Source: Colwellia sp. RSH04
Lineage (GTDB): Bacteria > Pseudomonadota > Gammaproteobacteria > Enterobacterales > Alteromonadaceae
Assembly: GCF_003545765.1 (NCBI RefSeq)
Contig: NZ_QXIO01000014.1
Location: forward strand, 1-64,000
Direction of reading: 5' to 3'
Length of the DNA stretch: 64,000 nucleotides
The notes below the pieces were generated by a model that saw nothing but the letters and a program-made list of their open reading frames with translations, had not been told where the DNA came from and ran no database searches. Both the position numbers and the translations under genes were made by a program. Within the stretch, counting starts at the first letter, position 1. The number at the start of each line of letters is the position of its first letter. This document shows positions 22,993-41,761 of the stretch, in pieces.

Positions 22993-24393
22993 TTAATCAT
23001 TAAGCTCTTTTAATTTTCGCGTTAAAGTATTTCTACCCCAGCCTAATTTTTTTGCCGCTTCTTGCTTGTGCCCATTGGTATATTTAAGCGCTTGTTCGAG
23101 CATTATTTTTTCAAATTCGGGCAAGGCATTATCTAAAATAGCACTTTTACCTTGTACTAATTCTTTGCTCATCCACTGTGCTAAAGCAAGTTGCCATGTT
23201 GTTGTTTCAGATGAAGATACAGGCGTTTCTTCTGTGAGTTCTGCGGGTAAATCTTCTAATAAAATTTCTTGTCCACTTGCCATTACGGTAAGGAAGCGGC
23301 AGGTGTTTTCTAATTGCCTTACATTGCCAGGCCATGAGAAGTGAGTTAAATATTCACTGGCGGCTTTGCTGATGGTTTTAGCTTCTACACTTAATTCATT
23401 GGCGGCTTGTTTTAAGAAGTGCTGGCATAGTTGTGCAATGTCTTCTTTTCGTTCGCGTAAACTGGGTAAATGAATGCGAATAACGTTCAGGCGATGAAAG
23501 AGATCTTCACGAAAGTCTCCATTACTTACGGCTTCTTCAAGGTTTTGATGTGTTGCTGCAATAATTCGCACATCTACTTGTACTGGTGAATGACCACCCA
23601 CACGATAAAACTGTCCATCGGCTAATACCCGTAATAATCGCGTTTGAATGTCTAAGGGCATATCACCTATTTCATCTAAAAAAAGCGTACCACCATGGGC
23701 TTGCTCGAACCTGCCTTGACGTACTGAGTTTGCCCCCGTAAAAGCCCCTTTTTCATGGCCAAATAATTCCGATTCTATTAAGTCTTTAGGGATAGCTGCC
23801 ATATTCAATGGAATAAAAGGAGCGTCTTGTCTTGGGCTATGAGAATGTAAGGCGTTGGCAACCAGCTCTTTACCTGTACCAGATTCTCCATTAATTAAAA
23901 CGCTGATACTAGAACGAGATAATCTGCCAATCGCCCTGAATACTTCTTGCATTGCTGGTGCTTCACCAATTAATCCCGCAGTAACAGGTGCTTGCTTCTC
24001 TTGATGCTTTTTCGCGTTTTGTTCTCTTGCGTGTGTTAATGCCCGTTTGGATAAAGCGACGGCTTCATCAATATCGAAAGGTTTAGGTAAGTATTCAAAC
24101 GCCCCCCCTTGGTAAGCGTTAACGGCGCTATCTAAATCAGAGTGCGCAGTCATAATAATAACGGGGATGGTGTTGTGTTGTTTGTTAACTTTTTGCAGTA
24201 GTTCCATACCATCCATATTAGGCATACGTATATCAGAAATAATAACTTCGGGTTGTCCGTGATCAAGTGCTATAAGTAGATTTTCGGCACTTTCAAAGGA
24301 TGCGGTACTGATATTTGCATTTGAGAATGCTTTTTCTAATACCCAGCGAATAGAGCTGTCATCATCAACTATCCAAACTTGTTCTGTGATCAT
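22993..24393 (-). CDS. glnG: nitrogen regulation response regulator NtrC (sigma-54 activator)
   Basis: 466 residues in the classic three parts. The receiver domain (1-120) has the phospho-acceptor aspartate in DIRMPNMDG near 54. The AAA+ sigma-54 activation domain (~140-370) has Walker A GESGTGKE and the GAFTGA loop. The C-terminal Fis-type helix-turn-helix has NGHKQEAAKKLGWGRNTLTRK. When phosphorylated by NtrB under nitrogen limitation it drives glnA and other genes. It follows ntrB with 33 bases between them, and two NtrC-type sites are seen upstream of glnA in this window. Confidence 0.95.
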   Translation of the reverse strand: MITEQVWIVDDDSSIRWVLEKAFSNANISTASFESAENLLIALDHGQPEVIISDIRMPNMDGMELLQKVNKQHNTIPVIIMTAHSDLDSAVNAYQGGAFEYLPKPFDIDEAVALSKRALTHAREQNAKKHQEKQAPVTAGLIGEAPAMQEVFRAIGRLSRSSISVLINGESGTGKELVANALHSHSPRQDAPFIPLNMAAIPKDLIESELFGHEKGAFTGANSVRQGRFEQAHGGTLFLDEIGDMPLDIQTRLLRVLADGQFYRVGGHSPVQVDVRIIAATHQNLEEAVSNGDFREDLFHRLNVIRIHLPSLRERKEDIAQLCQHFLKQAANELSVEAKTISKAASEYLTHFSWPGNVRQLENTCRFLTVMASGQEILLEDLPAELTEETPVSSSETTTWQLALAQWMSKELVQGKSAILDNALPEFEKIMLEQALKYTNGHKQEAAKKLGWGRNTLTRKLKELND

Positions 24394-24426
24394 TATTTTT
24401 CTCTTTTTTTGAAGGTGCTTTATTAA

Positions 24427-25503
24427 TTATTGTTGTGTTAATGGCAGTAAAATTACAAATTCGGTATGCCCTGGCCGACTATGGCAAGAGAGCTTTCCTT
24501 GATGCTGATTCACTAAGGTTTGCGATATAGATAAACCTAGCCCCGTTCCATTTGAACGCCCTGAGACCATAGGGTAAAAAAGTGTATCTTGTATTTGAGC
24601 AGGAATACCGGGGCCATTATCTATTATGCTAATTTGAGCAGTAAGCTTTACGCGCTTGCCATTGATTGTTTTATTGCTGGCGACACGGGTTTTTAAGGTG
24701 ATGGTGCAATTTTGTTCAATGGCTTGAATAGCATTACTCACTATATTTAATACTGCTTGTTGTATTTTTTCTTGATCACATTCTATTAAAGGAATAGACG
24801 GGTCGTAATCTCTTTTTAATGTGATGTTTTTATCGTTTGAAAAACTAACCACCTGACAAACTTTTTCTAATACCGAGTGGATATTATTTTGGTTGATTTG
24901 CGGAAGTTGATTTGGCCCTAATAAGCGATCTACCAAGTTAGTGAGCCTGTCTGCTTGTTCGATGATCATGCTAGTATATTCTTGCTGATCAGTATTGAGT
25001 TCGCGGTTAAGTAATTGAGCTGCACCACGTAAGCCCCCGAGAGGGTTTTTAATTTCGTGTGCTAAGCCTTTAATTAAATCGCGTGCAGCGACCCATTGTT
25101 GATGTTGAAAAACCTCTAAGCTGATCTGTTTTTGTTGATCTATTTGCTTAAGTTCTAGTAGTACGTGTGGCTGTTGTTCAAATTCAACCGAAGAAGCAGT
25201 AATTTCGGCAGTAAAGCGATGACTTTCACTGAACTCAATAACAATGTCACTGTCAGTGAGTTCTTGTCCTGATGCCAGCAATTGCTTTAATCGTTTACTA
25301 TTAATGGTGGTATTAGCGAAGATAAAATCAGCAGGATAATTATATAACTTTGTTAAACTTTTATTGAGCAGAGCTTCTGCTGAAGGGTTTAAATAAACAA
25401 TGTTTAATTCTTGATTAAGAATGATAATTGCAGTCACCATTTGGCTAGCTAACGCCTGTTGGTAAACTTTTTTTTGTTCTTGTATTAGCTGTCTATTCTG
25501 CAT
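24427..25503 (-). CDS. glnL: nitrogen regulation sensor kinase NtrB
   Basis: 358 residues: an N-terminal PAS domain (~15-120, IVYLNPSAEALLN), an H-box with the phosphorylated histidine (LAHEIKNPLGGLRGAAQLL) near 140, and a C-terminal ATPase with the N box (LNIVSNAIQAI), DNGPGIP and GTGLGLSI motifs. No membrane segments, as expected for NtrB, which is controlled by PII protein. I start at the ATG at 25503; the longer frame begins with TTG at 25515. Order glnA - DUF4124 gene - ntrB - ntrC, all on the minus strand, as in many Alteromonadales. Confidence 0.94.
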   Translation of the reverse strand: MQNRQLIQEQKKVYQQALASQMVTAIIILNQELNIVYLNPSAEALLNKSLTKLYNYPADFIFANTTINSKRLKQLLASGQELTDSDIVIEFSESHRFTAEITASSVEFEQQPHVLLELKQIDQQKQISLEVFQHQQWVAARDLIKGLAHEIKNPLGGLRGAAQLLNRELNTDQQEYTSMIIEQADRLTNLVDRLLGPNQLPQINQNNIHSVLEKVCQVVSFSNDKNITLKRDYDPSIPLIECDQEKIQQAVLNIVSNAIQAIEQNCTITLKTRVASNKTINGKRVKLTAQISIIDNGPGIPAQIQDTLFYPMVSGRSNGTGLGLSISQTLVNQHQGKLSCHSRPGHTEFVILLPLTQQ

Positions 25504-25679
25504 TACTAAGCCCAATCAATAAGTATGAAAATGCACTGCACCTTTTTGGTGCGTGTGATTTTAGTTTACTTGATAACTATTTTAATTGCTGGCTTTTTTT
25601 CAAAGAAAGAGAATCAATAAAGTTTTATTAGTGTATGTTTTATAACGACTTTTTCATTTTTTGTTAAAAACTAAACTGT

Positions 25680-26198
25680 TTAGTTTACCGAAGCTCTGTG
25701 CATATAAAATGTTACTGACTCAGACGATGCAATAACCTTGCCCTTTTCGTTGAGTAAGTCCATTTTTATTTTATGCTCGCCTCTGTCGATATTGCGTAAT
25801 GAGAACATAGAGTGGATTTGTGGTTTTTTATATGGTTTACCGTCGAGGTAGAGTTGTACTTTAAACCCTTGTTTAAACTGCGGTTTAATGCCGCCACTGA
25901 TGTAGATGGAACCGGTATTATCGCGGATAGTCGCGTTGTTTTGAGGGTTATTTATAACGACTTGATAGATTTCTTCAAGTTGTTGTGGGTTGATATCTAG
26001 TACTTCAGTATCAACCGACGTAGCAGACTCAATGATATTTCCTGGTTTTGTTTTAACTTCTTCTGCACCAGGGCGAGGCGTATCTGAAAACACTAATACA
26101 CCTTGTTCATTGCGCCACACATAAATTTTAGCAGGACTCTGAAATGCAGAGGCTGTTATTGATGTGAGTAAAAGCGCTATGAATAAATATTTAGTCAT
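25680..26198 (-). CDS. exported DUF4124-domain protein
   Basis: 172 residues with a signal peptide (FIALLLTSITASAFQ). Then a DUF4124 segment (KIYVWRNEQGVLVFSDTPRPG at ~24-44) with the usual W-x-N/D-x-x-G-x-x-x-(F/Y)-S/T-D-x-P pattern. A C-terminal beta-rich part (IYISGGIKPQFKQGFKVQLY) resembles an Ig-like fold. Proteins of this type lie between glnA and ntrB in many gammaproteobacteria, and their role is unknown. The 240 bases upstream hold the glnA terminator, so this gene has its own promoter or depends on read-through. Confidence 0.75.
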   Translation of the reverse strand: MTKYLFIALLLTSITASAFQSPAKIYVWRNEQGVLVFSDTPRPGAEEVKTKPGNIIESATSVDTEVLDINPQQLEEIYQVVINNPQNNATIRDNTGSIYISGGIKPQFKQGFKVQLYLDGKPYKKPQIHSMFSLRNIDRGEHKIKMDLLNEKGKVIASSESVTFYMHRASVN

Positions 26199-26395
26199 AT
26201 AAATTAACTATTCGAATCCCTGAGATAATTATACAACGCAAATACAGAATACGCTGCTCTTAATTTAAGTATATACCTATAAATTATACAAAAAAAATTA
26301 TTTTTACTACTAAATGTTACAAGTTAACTTGTAAACCACATAAGAATCTTTAGCAGGTGTTGATGAAAAATTGATTATTTGAAGTTATAAGACAT

Positions 26396-26423
26396 AAAAA
26401 AAGCTCACCTTAGTGAGCTTTTC
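26396..26423 (-). terminator. rho-independent terminator of glnA
   Basis: On the minus strand AAAAGCTCAC-TAAG-GTGAGCTTTTTTT forms a strong stem ending in T. It begins about 17 bases after the glnA stop. Confidence 0.88.
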
Positions 26424-26439
26424 AATATTATGTTATTAA

Positions 26440-27846
26440 TTAAACGCTGTAGTACATGTCAAATTCAACAGGGTGAGTTGTTGAGTTTAATAATTCTACT
26501 TCTTCACGTTTAAGGGCAATGTAAGCATCAATCATGTCATTGTCCATTACGCCGCCAGCCGTTAAGAATTCTTTATCTGCTTCTAAAGCGTCTAACGCCT
26601 CTTCTAAAGATGCAGCAACTTGTGGAATTGCAGCAGCTTCTTCAGCGGGTAAGTCGTATAAATCTTTATCCATTGCATCGCCAGGGTGAATTTTATTTTT
26701 AATACCGTCAAGGCCAGCCATAAGCATTGCTGAGAAAGCTAGGTATGGGTTAGCAGTAGGATCAGGGAAACGAACTTCAATACGCATTGCTTTTGGTGTA
26801 GGTACAATTGGGATACGAATTGACGCACTACGGTTACGAGCAGAATATGCAAGCATAACAGGTGCTTCAAAACCAGGAACTAAACGTTTGTATGAGTTAG
26901 TAGACGCATTCGTGAAAGCATTTAATGCTTTAGCATGCTTAATAATACCGCCAACGTAGTAAAGTGCTGTTTCAGATAATCCGCCGTACTTATCACCAGC
27001 AAATAAGTTAACGCCATCTTTGGCTAAAGATTGATGAACGTGCATACCTGTACCGTTGTCACCTACAATTGGTTTAGGCATGAAAGTCGCTGTTTTACCA
27101 TAGGCGTGAGCTACGTTATGAACAACATACTTATAAATTTGTACTTCATCAGCTTTTAATACCATTGTATTAAAGCGACAAGCAATTTCATTTTGACCTG
27201 CGGTCGCAACTTCATGGTGATGTGCTTCAACAACTAAGCCCATATCTTCCATAACTAAACACATTGCTGAACGTAAATCTTGTGACGAGTCAACAGGAGC
27301 AACAGGGAAGTAACCACCTTTAACACCAGGTCTATGGCCTGTGTTGCCATCTTCATAGCTAGTACCAGAGTTCCATTTAGCTTCTTTATCATCAATTTTG
27401 TAGAATGAACCGCTCATGTCTGTATGGAAACGTACATCATCAAAAACGAAGAACTCAGGCTCTGGACCAATTAACACAGTATCTGCAATACCAGTACCGC
27501 GCATGTACTCTTCAGCGCGTTTAGCGACTGAACGAGGGTCACGGCTGTAGCCTTGCATTGTTGCAGGCTCTACAATGTCACAACGAATATTTAAAGTAAC
27601 AGCTTCAGTAAATGGGTCTAAAATTGCTGAATCTGCATCAGGCATCATTACCATGTCTGATTCATTGATACCTTTCCAGCCTTCAATTGAAGAACCGTCA
27701 AACATTTTACCGTCTTCGAAGAAGTCTTCGTCAACTTGGTGATGAGGAATAGAAACGTGCTGCTCTTTACCCTTAGAATCTGTAAAACGAAGGTCTACGA
27801 ATTTAACATCGTGCTCTTTAATTAAATCGAATACTGCTTGTGACAT
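26440..27846 (-). CDS. glnA: glutamine synthetase, type I
   Basis: 468 residues, the length of proteobacterial GSI-beta. It makes glutamine from glutamate, ammonia and ATP as a dodecamer. Visible motifs are FDGSSIEGW (substrate latch), the ATP and glutamate site parts [11 protein letters not shown] and the NRSASIRIP arginine loop. The adenylylation tyrosine is in KDLYDLP near 397. It heads the nitrogen control group and is preceded by a sigma-54 promoter with two NtrC-type enhancer sites. Its own terminator follows. Confidence 0.97.
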
Positions 27847-37832: not shown

Positions 37833-37952
37833 ATGGAATTTATATTTAATTTGTGGGAAGGGTTAGAGAGCATATTTTGGCTTTTGCTCGTTGTTTTTAT
37901 CGTGATAAAAGTATGGCATAGCTTTTGGCATTGGCTATTTCCTAGTGACTAA
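37833..37952 (+). CDS. 39-residue small membrane protein
   Basis: A short frame M-E-F-I-F-N-L-W-E-G-L followed by a hydrophobic helix (SIFWLLLVVFIVIKVW) and HSFWHWLFPSD. It has an unusually perfect Shine-Dalgarno AAGGAGG 6 bases before the ATG. It lies 62 bases after the unknown membrane protein gene on the same strand. Trp-rich single-helix proteins of this size often associate with membrane complexes. Function unknown. The strong ribosome site is the main reason to believe it is translated. Confidence 0.6.
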   Translation: MEFIFNLWEGLESIFWLLLVVFIVIKVWHSFWHWLFPSD

Positions 37953-38209: not shown

Positions 38210-39175
38210 ATGATTGACCATAAATTGTCAGTTGCACCAATGCTTGATTGGACCGATCGTCACTGCCGTTATTTCTATCGCCTAATGTCTGCGCATACGG
38301 TTCTTTATACCGAAATGGTAACCACGGGAGCTATTTTGCATGGTCGAGGAGATTATTTAGCTTATAACGATGCTGAACACCCTTTAGTCCTTCAGCTTGG
38401 TGGTAGTGATGTTATTGCTATGGTTGAGTGTGCCAAAATTGCAGAGCAACGAGGTTATGATGAGATTAATATTAACGTTGGTTGTCCGTCAGATAGAGTA
38501 CAAAATGGACGCTTTGGGGCATGTTTGATGGCTGAACCGGCATTAGTGGCAGAATGTGTGAATGAAATGCAAGCGGCAACTAAAGTGCCTGTTACCGTGA
38601 AATCGAGAATAGGTATAGATGACCATGACAGTTATGAGTTTTTACATACCTTCATTGAGCAAGTTGCTCAAGCGGGTTGCCAGCATTTTATTATTCATGC
38701 AAGAAAAGCCTGGCTAAGTGGCTTAAGCCCCAAGCAAAACCGTGATATTCCACCACTTGATTATCATAGAGTTTATCAAATAAAGCAGGATTTCTCCGAG
38801 TTAGAAATTTCAATTAATGGTGGTATAAAGTCTCTTGAGGAGGCCAGTGAGCATTTAAACTATGTTGATGGCGTAATGATTGGCCGAGAGATTTATAACA
38901 GCCCCTATTTATTGGCTCAAGTTGATCAGAAGTTATATCAACAATCTACGGCTGTTTTAACACGTGAAGATGTTATTGAGCAGATGATAAGTTATGTTAA
39001 TCAGCATGTTGCTTCTGGTGGAAAAGCTTGGCATGTTTTAAGACATATGCTGGGTTTATGTAATGGTTTAGCTGGAGCAAGACAATATCGACGTTATTTA
39101 AGCGAGTGCGCTGGTAATGCAGAAGCTAGCGGTCAAACATTAAAAGAAGCAGCGTTGAAAGTACAATTTAGCTAA
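38210..39175 (+). CDS. dusA: tRNA-dihydrouridine(20/20a) synthase DusA
   Basis: 321 residues. An FMN enzyme that reduces uridine 20 and 20a in the D-loop of tRNA. TIM-barrel start [20 protein letters not shown], the catalytic cysteine region [20 protein letters not shown] near residue 90-108, [15 protein letters not shown], the [19 protein letters not shown] substrate loop specific to DusA, and FMN phosphate site ISINGGIKS and [10 protein letters not shown]. It is a single gene with its own leader. Confidence 0.95.
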
Positions 39176-39257
39176 AACATTATTAACCTCATTATCAATA
39201 ACAATGTTGCTTATTACTGTTGTCAGCTGAATAAATTGTATTTTTTACTAATAGTTA

Positions 39258-39270
39258 GTTAATTTAACCA
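39258..39270. promoter_or_regulatory. candidate enhancer for the first sigma-54 promoter
   Basis: GTTAATTTAACCA, read on the other strand as TGGTTAAATTAAC, resembles the 15-base repeat at 39758 and 39780 (11 of 13 positions). It lies about 100 bases upstream of the sigma-54 promoter at 39367, a normal enhancer distance. Weak evidence alone. Confidence 0.35.
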
Positions 39271-39366
39271 ATCAAAATAAAACACAAAAGATACTTAATG
39301 GTATAGAGGAGTTACTGGAAAAGTATTTTTCTTTATATTTCAATTGCATAATTAAAAGTTAAGAAT

Positions 39367-39383
39367 TTGGCACAACCTTTGTA
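39367..39383 (+). promoter_or_regulatory. sigma-54 promoter before the 33-residue ORF
   Basis: TTGGCAC-AACCT-TTGTA: perfect -24 element (TGGCAC) and a -12 element with one mismatch (TTGT for TTGC) at standard spacing. It ends 52 bases before the ATG at 39435. Confidence 0.65.
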
Positions 39384-39434
39384 ACACTTATTGCAACTTA
39401 GTAACAAGTAGCAATAAATATATAAGGATTAGTC

Positions 39435-39536
39435 ATGCTAGATTTAACTTTCTTTTTTACTTTAACGATGATGCCGGTGTTAGCTTTATTAGCTACTTCT
39501 ATCTTAGTAAGTTTATTTGAAAAAGAATCTACTTAA
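39435..39536 (+). CDS. 33-residue small membrane protein under a sigma-54 promoter
   Basis: A frame with AAGGA 7 bases before ATG, encoding MLDLTFFFTLTMMPVLALL followed by ATSILVSLFEKEST. It is one hydrophobic helix with a short charged tail. It has its own sigma-54 promoter and a terminator about 90 bases after the stop, so it is a single-gene unit directly before the psp group. It may be a small phage-shock-linked membrane peptide. No homologue is recognised with confidence. Confidence 0.55.
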   Translation: MLDLTFFFTLTMMPVLALLATSILVSLFEKEST

Positions 39537-39625
39537 CACGTTATTGTGTGAGCATGTTAATAGCGTTATTAACTGCAATATAGATTTAATATGATTTAAC
39601 AACGTCCCTTTCTGTTTATCGCAAT

Positions 39626-39652
39626 CAAGCCAACTATAAAGTTGGCTTTTTT
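39626..39652 (+). terminator. terminator after the 33-residue ORF
   Basis: AGCCAAC-TATAAA-GTTGGCT followed by TTTTT. It separates the small ORF from the psp promoter region downstream. Confidence 0.85.
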
Positions 39653-39757
39653 ATGCCTGAAATTTATGCAAAACAAAACGTTCGCTTTACCAAATATCTT
39701 TCATATGGACTTGTTTTTTTAAGTCTCTTTTTACTCTTTTTAATGAATCAAGTTGCT

Positions 39758-39794
39758 TGGTTAATTTGACTAACATTCATGGTTAATTTGACTA
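39758..39794. promoter_or_regulatory. tandem 15-base repeats, candidate PspF enhancer
   Basis: TGGTTAATTTGACTA occurs exactly twice, at 39758-39772 and 39780-39794. The 22-base phase is two helical turns, and a partial third copy (TTGGTTTGACATA) begins near 39799. It lies about 100 bases upstream of the second sigma-54 promoter. This geometry fits binding by a sigma-54 activator such as PspF; the pspF gene is not in the window. Confidence 0.55.
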
Positions 39795-39889
39795 TATTTT
39801 GGTTTGACATAATATGTCCGAAAGTAAGTCCTTGTACTATAAAATATTAAAAGTTTTTATTTATCAATGATATAAAATAATTGTCAACG

Positions 39890-39906
39890 TTGGCACAGCA
39901 CTTGTA
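39890..39906 (+). promoter_or_regulatory. sigma-54 promoter of the psp group
   Basis: TTGGCAC-AGCAC-TTGTA: perfect -24 element, -12 with one mismatch, the same form as the promoter at 39367. It lies about 125 bases before the first gene of the psp group. Enhancer-like repeats lie upstream. Confidence 0.7.
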
Positions 39907-40034
39907 ATAGTACTTGTAACGATGTGAACAGGCTAGCATGTTGTTAGTCAATTTGGTTTAACTGAAGTTGATATTACGATTCACAATAGCAGTAAACCAC
40001 AGTAATTAAATTTAAAGAGAAGAAGGAATTGATG

Positions 40035-40355
40035 ATGAAAACTTTAAACATTAAAAAAATGGGTTTGGTATTAGTTGTAACTTTAGGTGGTTTATTTTCT
40101 ATGAATGTTAATGCGGCATCAGCCAGCGTAGAAAATACAGTGAGTGATTTTGTTGTAGCGCAAGGTCAACAAATGATGAAAGAACTTAATAAGCAACTTC
40201 AACAAACGATTAAAGAAGAAGTTAAAGCTTTGTCATTAAACTTCACATTTGATGAAACAGTTAAACAAGAAAGCACAAAAAACCAGGTTGAAGATAAGAT
40301 GACTGTGGCAACTGTATCTACAGTGAAAAAAGTTAAACAAACAAATAACAAGTAA
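40035..40355 (+). CDS. small exported protein at the head of the psp group
   Basis: About 106 residues with a signal peptide (MGLVLVVTLGGLFSMNVNAASA). The mature part is short, helical and rich in Gln and Lys (QGQQMMKELNKQLQQTIKEEVK). ATG 40035 is 7 bases after AAGGA; ATG 40032 is possible. It stands 26 bases before pspA behind the same sigma-54 promoter, so it is likely part of the envelope-stress response. Family unknown; the mature part has no clear motif. Confidence 0.65.
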   Translation: MKTLNIKKMGLVLVVTLGGLFSMNVNAASASVENTVSDFVVAQGQQMMKELNKQLQQTIKEEVKALSLNFTFDETVKQESTKNQVEDKMTVATVSTVKKVKQTNNK

Positions 40356-40381: not shown

Positions 40382-41044
40382 ATGGGTTTATTTACACGTT
40401 TTACCGATATTGTGAATGCGAATATTAACAGCATGCTAGATAAAGCAGAGCAACCAGAGAAGATGATTCGTTTAATCATTCAAGAAATGGAAGAAACATT
40501 AGTAGAAGTTCGTGCGACGGCAGCAAAAAATATTGCTGAACAAAAAACATTGGCAAGAAAGGTTTCTGCCAGTCATGCAAGTGTCACCCATTGGCATGGA
40601 AAAGCAGAGCTTGCATTGGCTAAGAATCGAGATGACTTAGCAAAAGCAGCGTTAGCACAGAAACATAAGTATTTAGCAGAGCTTGAACAACTTGAAGAAG
40701 AAAACAAGCATTTAAGTGAGTTTCTAAGCGCGGTACAAGATGATGCACAAAAGTTACAAAGTAAATTGAATGAAGCAAAGCGTCGTCAAGAAGCATTATT
40801 GTTAAGACAAGAGTCTGCTGAAGTAAGGTTAAAAGTGAGAGAAAAAGCGGCGATTTACAACATCGATGAAGCGATAGGTAAGTTTGAGCGGTATCAGCAA
40901 AAAATTGATCGTATTGAAGCGCAAGTTGAGGCATTTGATATGACAGAAAATAAAGATTTATCGACACAAATCGCTGATTTAGAAAAAGACGAAAACATTG
41001 AGCAAGAATTAGCGGCAATGAAGAAGCAAGTAGTTAATGGCTAG
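40382..41044 (+). CDS. pspA: phage shock protein A
   Basis: 220 residues, almost entirely helical and coiled coil, in the PspA/IM30 family. N-terminal amphipathic helix (MGLFTRFTDIVNANINSML) and the typical AEQPEKMIRLIIQEMEETL segment. PspA is a peripheral inner-membrane protein of the ESCRT-III superfamily. It forms assemblies on damaged membrane and in its free form restrains PspF. Followed by pspC and a membrane protein. Regulation by sigma-54 is supported by the promoter upstream. Confidence 0.95.
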   Translation: MGLFTRFTDIVNANINSMLDKAEQPEKMIRLIIQEMEETLVEVRATAAKNIAEQKTLARKVSASHASVTHWHGKAELALAKNRDDLAKAALAQKHKYLAELEQLEEENKHLSEFLSAVQDDAQKLQSKLNEAKRRQEALLLRQESAEVRLKVREKAAIYNIDEAIGKFERYQQKIDRIEAQVEAFDMTENKDLSTQIADLEKDENIEQELAAMKKQVVNG

Positions 41045-41155: not shown

Positions 41156-41386
41156 ATGAATTATCGTAGAGAGTACACAACAGAAAAAGTAATTACCCCA
41201 GGTTTATCAAAAGATATCGTTAATAAAAAATTAACAGGTGTTTGTGCTGGTATTGCAAAGCATTATGAATACCCAAGAGTAGTCGTTAGAGTGGCAGCAA
41301 TTGCGGCACTAATATTTTTACCCGTAGCAACTGGTGTTGCTTATGTTGTAGCAAGTGCTTTATTACCAAGCCACAGAGCTTACTAA
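41156..41386 (+). CDS. pspC: phage shock protein C (PspC domain)
   Basis: 76 residues, essentially one PspC domain. LTGVCAGIAKHYEYPRVVVRVAAIAALIFLPVATGVAYVVASALLP covers the conserved G-x-C-x-G-(I/L)-x-x-(H/Y) start and the membrane helix. Shorter than E. coli PspC (119), lacking the C-terminal leucine-zipper part. No pspB is seen between pspA and pspC. Preceded by GAGGAG. Confidence 0.9.
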   Translation: MNYRREYTTEKVITPGLSKDIVNKKLTGVCAGIAKHYEYPRVVVRVAAIAALIFLPVATGVAYVVASALLPSHRAY

Positions 41387-41419: not shown

Positions 41420-41761
41420 ATGACATTTTTTAAATCTTTGATTCTAGCAATTCTAGCAACACTCTTTTTAACCTATGTTTTAGGAACCAGTTTATTAGAA
41501 TTATTAAATGTAAGTGTTTATATGGGCGAAGAGTTAATCGAACCTATTAAAGCAATAAGTGTTTCTGCATTAGTTGTTGTGCTATTGGTAGTTATCGCTT
41601 TAGCGATTGTGTTAAGTGTTTTTGGTAGTATTATTTTTATAGGATTATTAATTGTAGGGTCGGTAGTTATGGTTGCTGTAGGGGTGTTTTGGCCAGTACT
41701 ATTAATAGCGTTTGCTATATGGTTTGCAACAAAAGAAAAATCGAAACCTCAGTATAGATAG
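41420..41761 (+). CDS. psp-linked small membrane protein
   Basis: 113 residues with about three hydrophobic segments (near 5-24, 45-70 and 72-102) and a short basic tail (KEKSKPQYR). GGAGG lies 5-6 bases before the ATG. It comes 33 bases after pspC and is followed by a terminator, so it is the last gene of the psp group. I do not recognise a named family; position suggests a role in membrane stress. Confidence 0.7.
   Translation: MTFFKSLILAILATLFLTYVLGTSLLELLNVSVYMGEELIEPIKAISVSALVVVLLVVIALAIVLSVFGSIIFIGLLIVGSVVMVAVGVFWPVLLIAFAIWFATKEKSKPQYR

Follow-up and report, generated by a model that had tools for sequence, protein, structure and literature searches.

We describe here a gene for a 33-residue membrane peptide, lying behind its own sigma-54 promoter in a Colwellia genome, which we take with good confidence to be a real gene of the PspF regulon, judging from its conservation in related bacteria. 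The window, by which we mean the whole 64-kb stretch of DNA that was analysed, is part of contig C6 in a genome of 4.15 Mb, and holds a second sigma-54 promoter downstream of the first which precedes an operon for an exported protein, PspA, a short PspC-domain protein and a further membrane protein. The features of the locus are as follows:

38210 to 39175, plus strand: dusA, the conserved upstream neighbour of promoter 1.
39255 to 39271, plus strand: PspF-type palindrome of promoter 1, TTAGTTAATTTAACCAA, a 10/10 match to TTRGT-N7-ACYAA, 96 nt before TGGCAC.
39367 to 39383, plus strand: sigma-54 promoter 1, TTGGCACAACCTTTGTA, with psp-type -24/-12 elements; the same type is present in 38 related loci.
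39384 to 39434, plus strand: leader with a small hairpin and an AAGGA ribosome-binding site (alignment and fold), 96% identical to the nearest relative, L007.
39435 to 39536, plus strand: 33-residue single-pass membrane peptide, MLDLTFFFTLTMMPVLALLATSILVSLFEKEST (open reading frame, profile and conservation).
39627 to 39655, plus strand: predicted intrinsic terminator of a monocistronic unit, a stem at 39627-39648 followed by a T run, 86% identical to L007.
39757 to 39773, plus strand: PspF-type palindrome 2a, TTGGTTAATTTGACTAA, 10/10, 117 nt before TGGCAC.
39779 to 39795, plus strand: PspF-type palindrome 2b, 8/10 over 17 bp, 95 nt before TGGCAC; its 15-base core repeats that of 2a exactly.
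39890 to 39906, plus strand: sigma-54 promoter 2, TTGGCACAGCACTTGTA, a pattern match.
40032 to 40355, plus strand: exported, mostly helical protein of 107 aa, whose family matches (Pfam, NCBIfam) are all sub-threshold.
40382 to 41044, plus strand: PspA, the second copy in the genome, TIGR02977 over cut-off.
41156 to 41386, plus strand: short PspC-domain protein, PF04024 over cut-off and TIGR02978 below its cut-off.
41420 to 41761, plus strand: orf113, a 113-aa membrane protein with a PspG-like C-terminus (hhalign and permutation), the last gene of the operon.

The two promoters had been pointed out in a preliminary description of this DNA, which placed TTGGCAC-N5-TTGTA at 39367 and 39890. Searching the window for TTGGCACN5TTGTA returns these two matches, both on the plus strand, and no others, with shuffled sequence giving a mean of 0.03 matches and none of 100 shuffles reaching two. 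Promoter 1 shares its psp type with the E. coli pspA promoter (TTGGCACGCAAATTGTA). What the same description said of the genes behind each promoter is also borne out, with a single-helix reading frame and its own terminator after the first, and the 107-aa exported frame followed by the TIGR02977 and PF04024 matches after the second. Four terminator-like sites were found in 2.9 kb, where 1.4 would be expected, and of these the 39627-39648 stem is kept in L007. A promoter pattern search of the whole genome gave 21 matches compared with 16 for a backwards-read control, so that the genome-wide list must consist mostly of chance matches; of the 21, the two window promoters are alone in having a 10/10 palindrome no more than 200 nt away. 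Elsewhere in the genome, a sigma-54-like promoter (L327, G000:C42:115442-115457) has a 9/10 palindrome 71 nt upstream and precedes a gene whose 283-aa product begins with a signal-like sequence, which makes it a possible further PspF target.

Given that the canonical pspF and pspA-pspB-pspC genes lie on another contig (C62), separate from the window locus, the operon comprising the exported protein, PspA, the short PspC and orf113 represents an additional one. The other PspA copy lies on L001, and pspB is absent from the pspA operon of the window. By its PspA, the closest named relative is Litorilituus lipolyticus at 96%, in a scan that may omit records very near the window. The exported protein has residues E34, Q44 and I60 invariant across 29 aligned sequences, its family has copies downstream of both promoter types in relatives, and its predicted structure (mean pLDDT 62.5) consists of one signal-like and one long helix. 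For orf113, Pfam gave nothing and NCBIfam nothing over cut-off, and the predicted structure is mostly helical (pLDDT 82.6, pTM 0.44). On the 5' side of dusA, at 37833-37952, lies a 39-residue hydrophobic, tryptophan-rich reading frame which is without a Pfam or NCBIfam match.

To follow the two promoters beyond the window, we surveyed the psp loci of 75 relatives (78 less L080, L082 and L084, which were too distant) together with the window, giving 76 loci, each covered from dusA, or an upstream limit, to pspA. Of the sigma-54-like promoters in these loci, 39 belong to the first type (TGGCAYARCCTTTG) and 74 do not. A profile of the peptide finds a match within 800 nt downstream of 38 of the 39 first-type promoters and of none of the 74 others, and these counts are what lead us to regard the peptide as probably a new small member of the phage-shock regulon, as had been suggested. 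Loss of the peptide from relatives that keep the promoter had been named beforehand as the outcome that would speak against it; what was found is retention in all but one. The profile was itself seeded from 24 of the 39 first-type loci; of the 15 that had supplied no seed, 14 carry the peptide, several of them being near relatives of seeds, and the miss is L074, where the promoter is kept and there is no clear peptide. Among 46 dusA-linked loci, nine are without a peptide behind a matched promoter, three of which (L063, L064 and L066) carry a peptide with no promoter match. All 15 genomes of the genus that were picked by a peptide match have dusA and the promoter ahead of it, at least two of these genomes (those of L012 and L042) probably overlapping the 76-locus set. 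Only two of the 15 have pspA downstream within the fetched stretch, several stretches stopping at a contig end. If L012 and L347 share a contig, some 67 kb separate dusA and the peptide from the pspA operon there, in which case the dusA-peptide unit can stand alone. In one locus (L231, in G184) a tandem pair of first-type promoters follows dusA, with a peptide behind each.

A 24-row profile of the peptide matches 30 of 39 genomes of the genus (E <= 0.01), 40 of 98 of the family (E <= 0.05) and 11 of 247 of the order (E <= 0.01), two of the last lying inside long frames of other families; no match at these cut-offs was obtained for 9 of the genus genomes and 58 of the family genomes. Matches in the family fall 3' of dusA, within 3 kb and on the same strand, in 34 of 44 cases; among those at E < 1e-6 this holds for 25 of 27, and among the weaker for 9 of 17. 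A broader, 34-row profile matches 27 of the 247 order genomes, of which 11 belong to the window's family and four each to families f6 and f15. The eight f6 and f15 matches lie 444-706 nt past dusA on the same strand, one f15 sequence (G038) being itself a row of the profile. Five matches in f16 and one in f25 are away from dusA, and two in f3 lie inside long frames, with their place relative to dusA unlisted; the matches in these three families may be due to chance.

Gene order was compared in 80 loci around dusA, for the most part one to each genus; 60 of them come from the window's family, where loci both with and lacking a peptide match were taken, and 20 from other families. The peptide profile, which was partly built from these loci, matches 47 of them. 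A common order is dusA, a sigma-54 promoter, the exported protein and the peptide, followed at varying remove by a second sigma-54 promoter, in some cases another exported protein, pspA, in some cases a second peptide, pspC and orf113; what we take to be further envelope genes come after orf113. In six loci (L203, L211, L215, L248, L257 and L266) the exported protein, peptide and pspC follow one another without pspA. The second peptide (L028, L036, L063 and others) has about 29-50 residues and occupies the place of pspB between pspA and pspC; by eye, a further single-helix reading frame is present in 24 of 69 pspA-pspC gaps, and the window's gap has none.

These gene orders raise the question of what the peptide is related to. 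Profile comparison with hhalign joins its Colwellia-type and Alteromonas-type forms at 94.9%, and joins the dusA-linked peptides to those of the pspA-pspC gap at 88.8% for the broad family and 60.6% for the Colwellia type alone; none of 100 column permutations did as well for the two peptide families, which are thus probably one family by this measure. A truncated PspG orthologue is the alternative that the synteny suggests: the peptide has the place after dusA, the same promoter type and similar first residues (ML.L), and E. coli has the order dusA-pspG with a sigma-54 promoter. Of the 247 order genomes, 46 moreover have a PspG match over cut-off, the 19 that belong to the window's family contributing none. 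The place of dusA is listed for 45 of the 46; a comparison by hand puts PspG immediately behind it in 29 (f10, f18, f21) and elsewhere in 16 (f12, f25). We nevertheless consider the truncated-PspG reading highly unlikely, as the profiles, compared against permutation controls, gave it no backing. Peptide and PspG profiles score only 0.5-2.9% over 1-10 columns, with 2 (broad family) and 7 (Colwellia type) of 100 permutations as good, and the peptide has no match to PF09583 or TIGR02975. In many relatives, too, the peptide stands behind the exported protein, and in some directly before pspC. The PspG-like stretch appears instead to be the C-terminus of orf113, which aligns with PspG at 77.4% or 58.7%, depending on query orientation, over 18-19 columns, with no permutation in 100 as good. 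The permutation test is a lenient one, since the peptide-orf113 pair also gives 0 of 100 at a probability of 4.7%.

Against PspB, hhalign gives 15.2% for all dusA-linked peptides, 19.9% for the Alteromonas type and 24.7% for the pspA-pspC peptides, with 0, 1 and 0 permutations in 100 as good, respectively; the Colwellia type alone scores 2.3% over 11 columns, less than the 7.7% it reaches with the PspC set, with 10 permutations as good. All of these scores vary with which side is taken as the query. The window peptide has no TIGR02976 match (NCBIfam, E up to 0.1), and 24 members have no match to the Pfam PspB family (E up to 10); the sole TIGR02976 match in the genome is the C62 gene, which is a true PspB. 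Orthology with PspB was accordingly set aside, the likeness being weak for the broad family and not above permutation for the Colwellia type by itself, and descent of the peptide from PspB is put forward as possible on the profile evidence.

We turn now to the activator. Exact 15-mers (TGGTTAATTTGACTA) begin at 39758 and 39780, spaced 22 bases, and a related copy with two mismatches matches on the minus strand at 39256-39270, ahead of promoter 1. Both the repeats at enhancer distance and the related sequence had been noticed before, and they are better seen as a 17-bp palindrome, TTRGT-N7-ACYAA. Perfect palindromes occur in the 64 kb only at 39255-39271 and 39757-39773, where 0.56 would be expected; as 12 of 100 shuffles also reach two, the count is weak by itself and the weight rests on position. 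Furthermore, the palindrome was first derived from the window, which makes the window sites circular as evidence. In the 76 loci, a site of at least 9/10 lies 90-120 nt upstream of 30 of 39 first-type and 60 of 74 other promoters, compared with 1.3% in dinucleotide shuffles; in control stretches 300-480 nt upstream, such a site is found for 1 of 38 and 8 of 72, and part of the latter eight may in fact serve a neighbouring promoter. When promoters were picked with a pattern that differed slightly and the shuffles were mononucleotide ones, the count was 90 of 115, compared with 3.5%. Paired sites (at least 8/10, at 113-119 and 91-98 nt) precede 48 of 74 second-type promoters and 4 of 39 first-type promoters. 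Mostly one site at the first type and mostly two at the second is the pattern given for E. coli in PMC3709507, where pspA has two upstream activating sequences and pspG has one.

The same motif can be found before other psp genes. In E. coli K-12, the gap before pspA has TTAGTGTAATTCGCTAA (9/10) as its sole site of at least 8/10, and the gap before pspG has GTAGTCAAATTCACCAC (8/10) as its own, although an 8/10 match carries little weight alone given that two E. coli stretches have five in 4.0 kb and nine in 8.0 kb. The pspF-pspA gap of the Colwellia genome contains a 10/10 site, TTGGTTTTTTTCACTAA, and the sigma-54 promoter in this gap is far from consensus. PspF of this genome scores 555 bits against a cut-off of 443.55 in a profile search of the contigs, has the recognition helix TYHQLR where E. 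coli PspF has TYHQFR, and is over cut-off in all 98 family genomes searched. The sites are less regular in the 15 genus genomes picked by peptide, where only six have one of at least 9/10 before promoter 1; the best-matching sites of L343 and L348 lie 76-77 nt before the promoter, and the L007 site is 8/10. Taken together, the palindrome enrichment, the sites in the E. coli and Colwellia psp gaps, the similar recognition helices and the presence of PspF in 98 of 98 genomes point, with high probability, to PspF as the activator of both promoters, in agreement with what had been supposed from the window.

Another enhancer-binding protein, such as NtrC, could in principle drive both promoters, and candidates exist: the genome has nine strong and one weak further matches to the PspF model, and an NtrC-like gene lies in the window at 22993-24393. 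We judge this to be decidedly improbable. With an NtrC consensus and up to four mismatches allowed, there are no NtrC sites in 39170-39900, whereas two with two mismatches precede glnA, and NtrC was rejected on this basis; the palindrome, besides, is the one seen ahead of pspA and of pspG in E. coli and within the genome's own pspF-pspA gap. As a separate observation, the stretch 22993-27846 holds genes that we take to be those for an NtrC-like regulator, a sensor kinase and glutamine synthetase, the first named by its setting beside the other two; upstream of the glutamine synthetase gene are one sigma-54-like site and two that are NtrC-like.

A further alternative is that the reading frame is incidental to a transcript acting as RNA. 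A precedent might be seen in the PspH small RNA of E. coli, pspH being annotated after pspG there, and the leader of the peptide gene is highly conserved and has a hairpin. Comparison with L007 nonetheless argues for a protein product: identity is 94% in the promoter, 96% in the leader, 90% in the reading frame and 86% in the terminator, where one base pair is changed on both sides, and falls to 41% in the 3' UTR and 53% in the spacer before the promoter. An AAGGA lies upstream of the ATG. Pooled pN/pS is 0.24 over 73 overlapping pairs, a value biased low because pairs were limited to at least 60% amino acid identity, and 0.19 on ten changes for the window and L007 alone. Across divergent DNA, the 34 aligned members of the broad family show hardly any gaps about an invariant mid-helix proline, with peptides of 33 residues in the window and 29 to about 57 in relatives. 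We therefore hold the RNA reading to be very improbable, the unconserved 3' UTR in particular counting against it. The first stretch past promoter 1 (39384-39400, around TTATTGCAACTTA) is similar across many distant loci, beyond what the reading frame needs. That the peptide is a toxin-like or holin-like membrane peptide with incidental stress induction is scarcely credible, for while it is a short hydrophobic single helix and one of 24 members touches Hol_Tox at a chance-level E = 4.4, it keeps a fixed place in the psp regulon and has a paralogue within the pspA operon of relatives.

In E. coli, PspA lets go of PspF when the inner membrane is under stress. By extension from that system, inner-membrane stress would free PspF from PspA in this bacterium also; PspF on the 39255 palindrome would then activate sigma-54 RNA polymerase at 39367 to make an RNA some 260 nt long, ending at about 39655, and PspF on the two further sites would induce, from 39890, the genes for the exported protein, PspA and PspC together with orf113. 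The peptide is predicted to insert as one helix, with its acidic N-terminus outside and its charged tail inside, and might, at a guess, be a small membrane partner of PspA or PspC. Its occurrence before pspC in some relatives, its paralogue in the pspA-pspC gap and the weak profile likeness of the broad family lead us to float, tentatively, that it stands in PspB's place as a stripped-down PspB-like anchor or modulator. A wider reading, which we offer as conceivable though short of probable, is that Alteromonas- and Colwellia-type bacteria carry at their dusA locus an undescribed PspF-controlled satellite unit made up of the exported protein, the proline-helix peptide, a short PspC and a membrane protein resembling PspG, in some cases along with a second PspA. 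On this reading the peptide would be the smallest known Psp membrane component, a PspB cut to its transmembrane helix, existing as two paralogues and occupying the position that PspG has in other gammaproteobacteria.

Membrane proteins of the PspF regulon are a known kind, and it is the 33-residue member that appears to be new. A literature search, on the titles and the starts of abstracts that it listed, returned no description of the peptide, and PspG, Alteromonad- and dusA are not mentioned in the main text of PMC11237479. The regulon seems to hold extra conserved families, in that Pfam and NCBIfam matches over cut-off name neither the peptide, nor the exported protein, nor orf113. If a helix of 33 residues recruits or tunes PspA, it would offer a minimal handle on how PspA senses a damaged membrane and docks there, and its exchange with PspG and PspB would reveal how evolution rebuilds the membrane-sensing part of the Psp system.

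Among known systems, E. coli pspG comes close in setting. It likewise lies directly after dusA, with a PspF-type site, a sigma-54 promoter and a small hydrophobic product, and it shares with the peptide's promoter type the use of mostly one enhancer site; its product, however, has 80 residues in E. coli (PspG being about 69-90), and no profile relation to the peptide was found. LiaI of the PspA-type Lia system of Bacillus subtilis is a small membrane protein tied to a PspA-type protein, according to PMC9239133 and PMC11237479, and is likened here by description, belonging to another phylum and another regulator. PspB resembles the peptide in its single N-terminal helix with a proline, and the peptide does stand before pspC in some relatives and is weakly alike to PspB in its broad-family profile. 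In PspB, as laid out in PMC11237479, the N-terminal helix is followed by a cytoplasmic helical domain, whereas the peptide stops just past its helix and, in the window, does not adjoin pspC.
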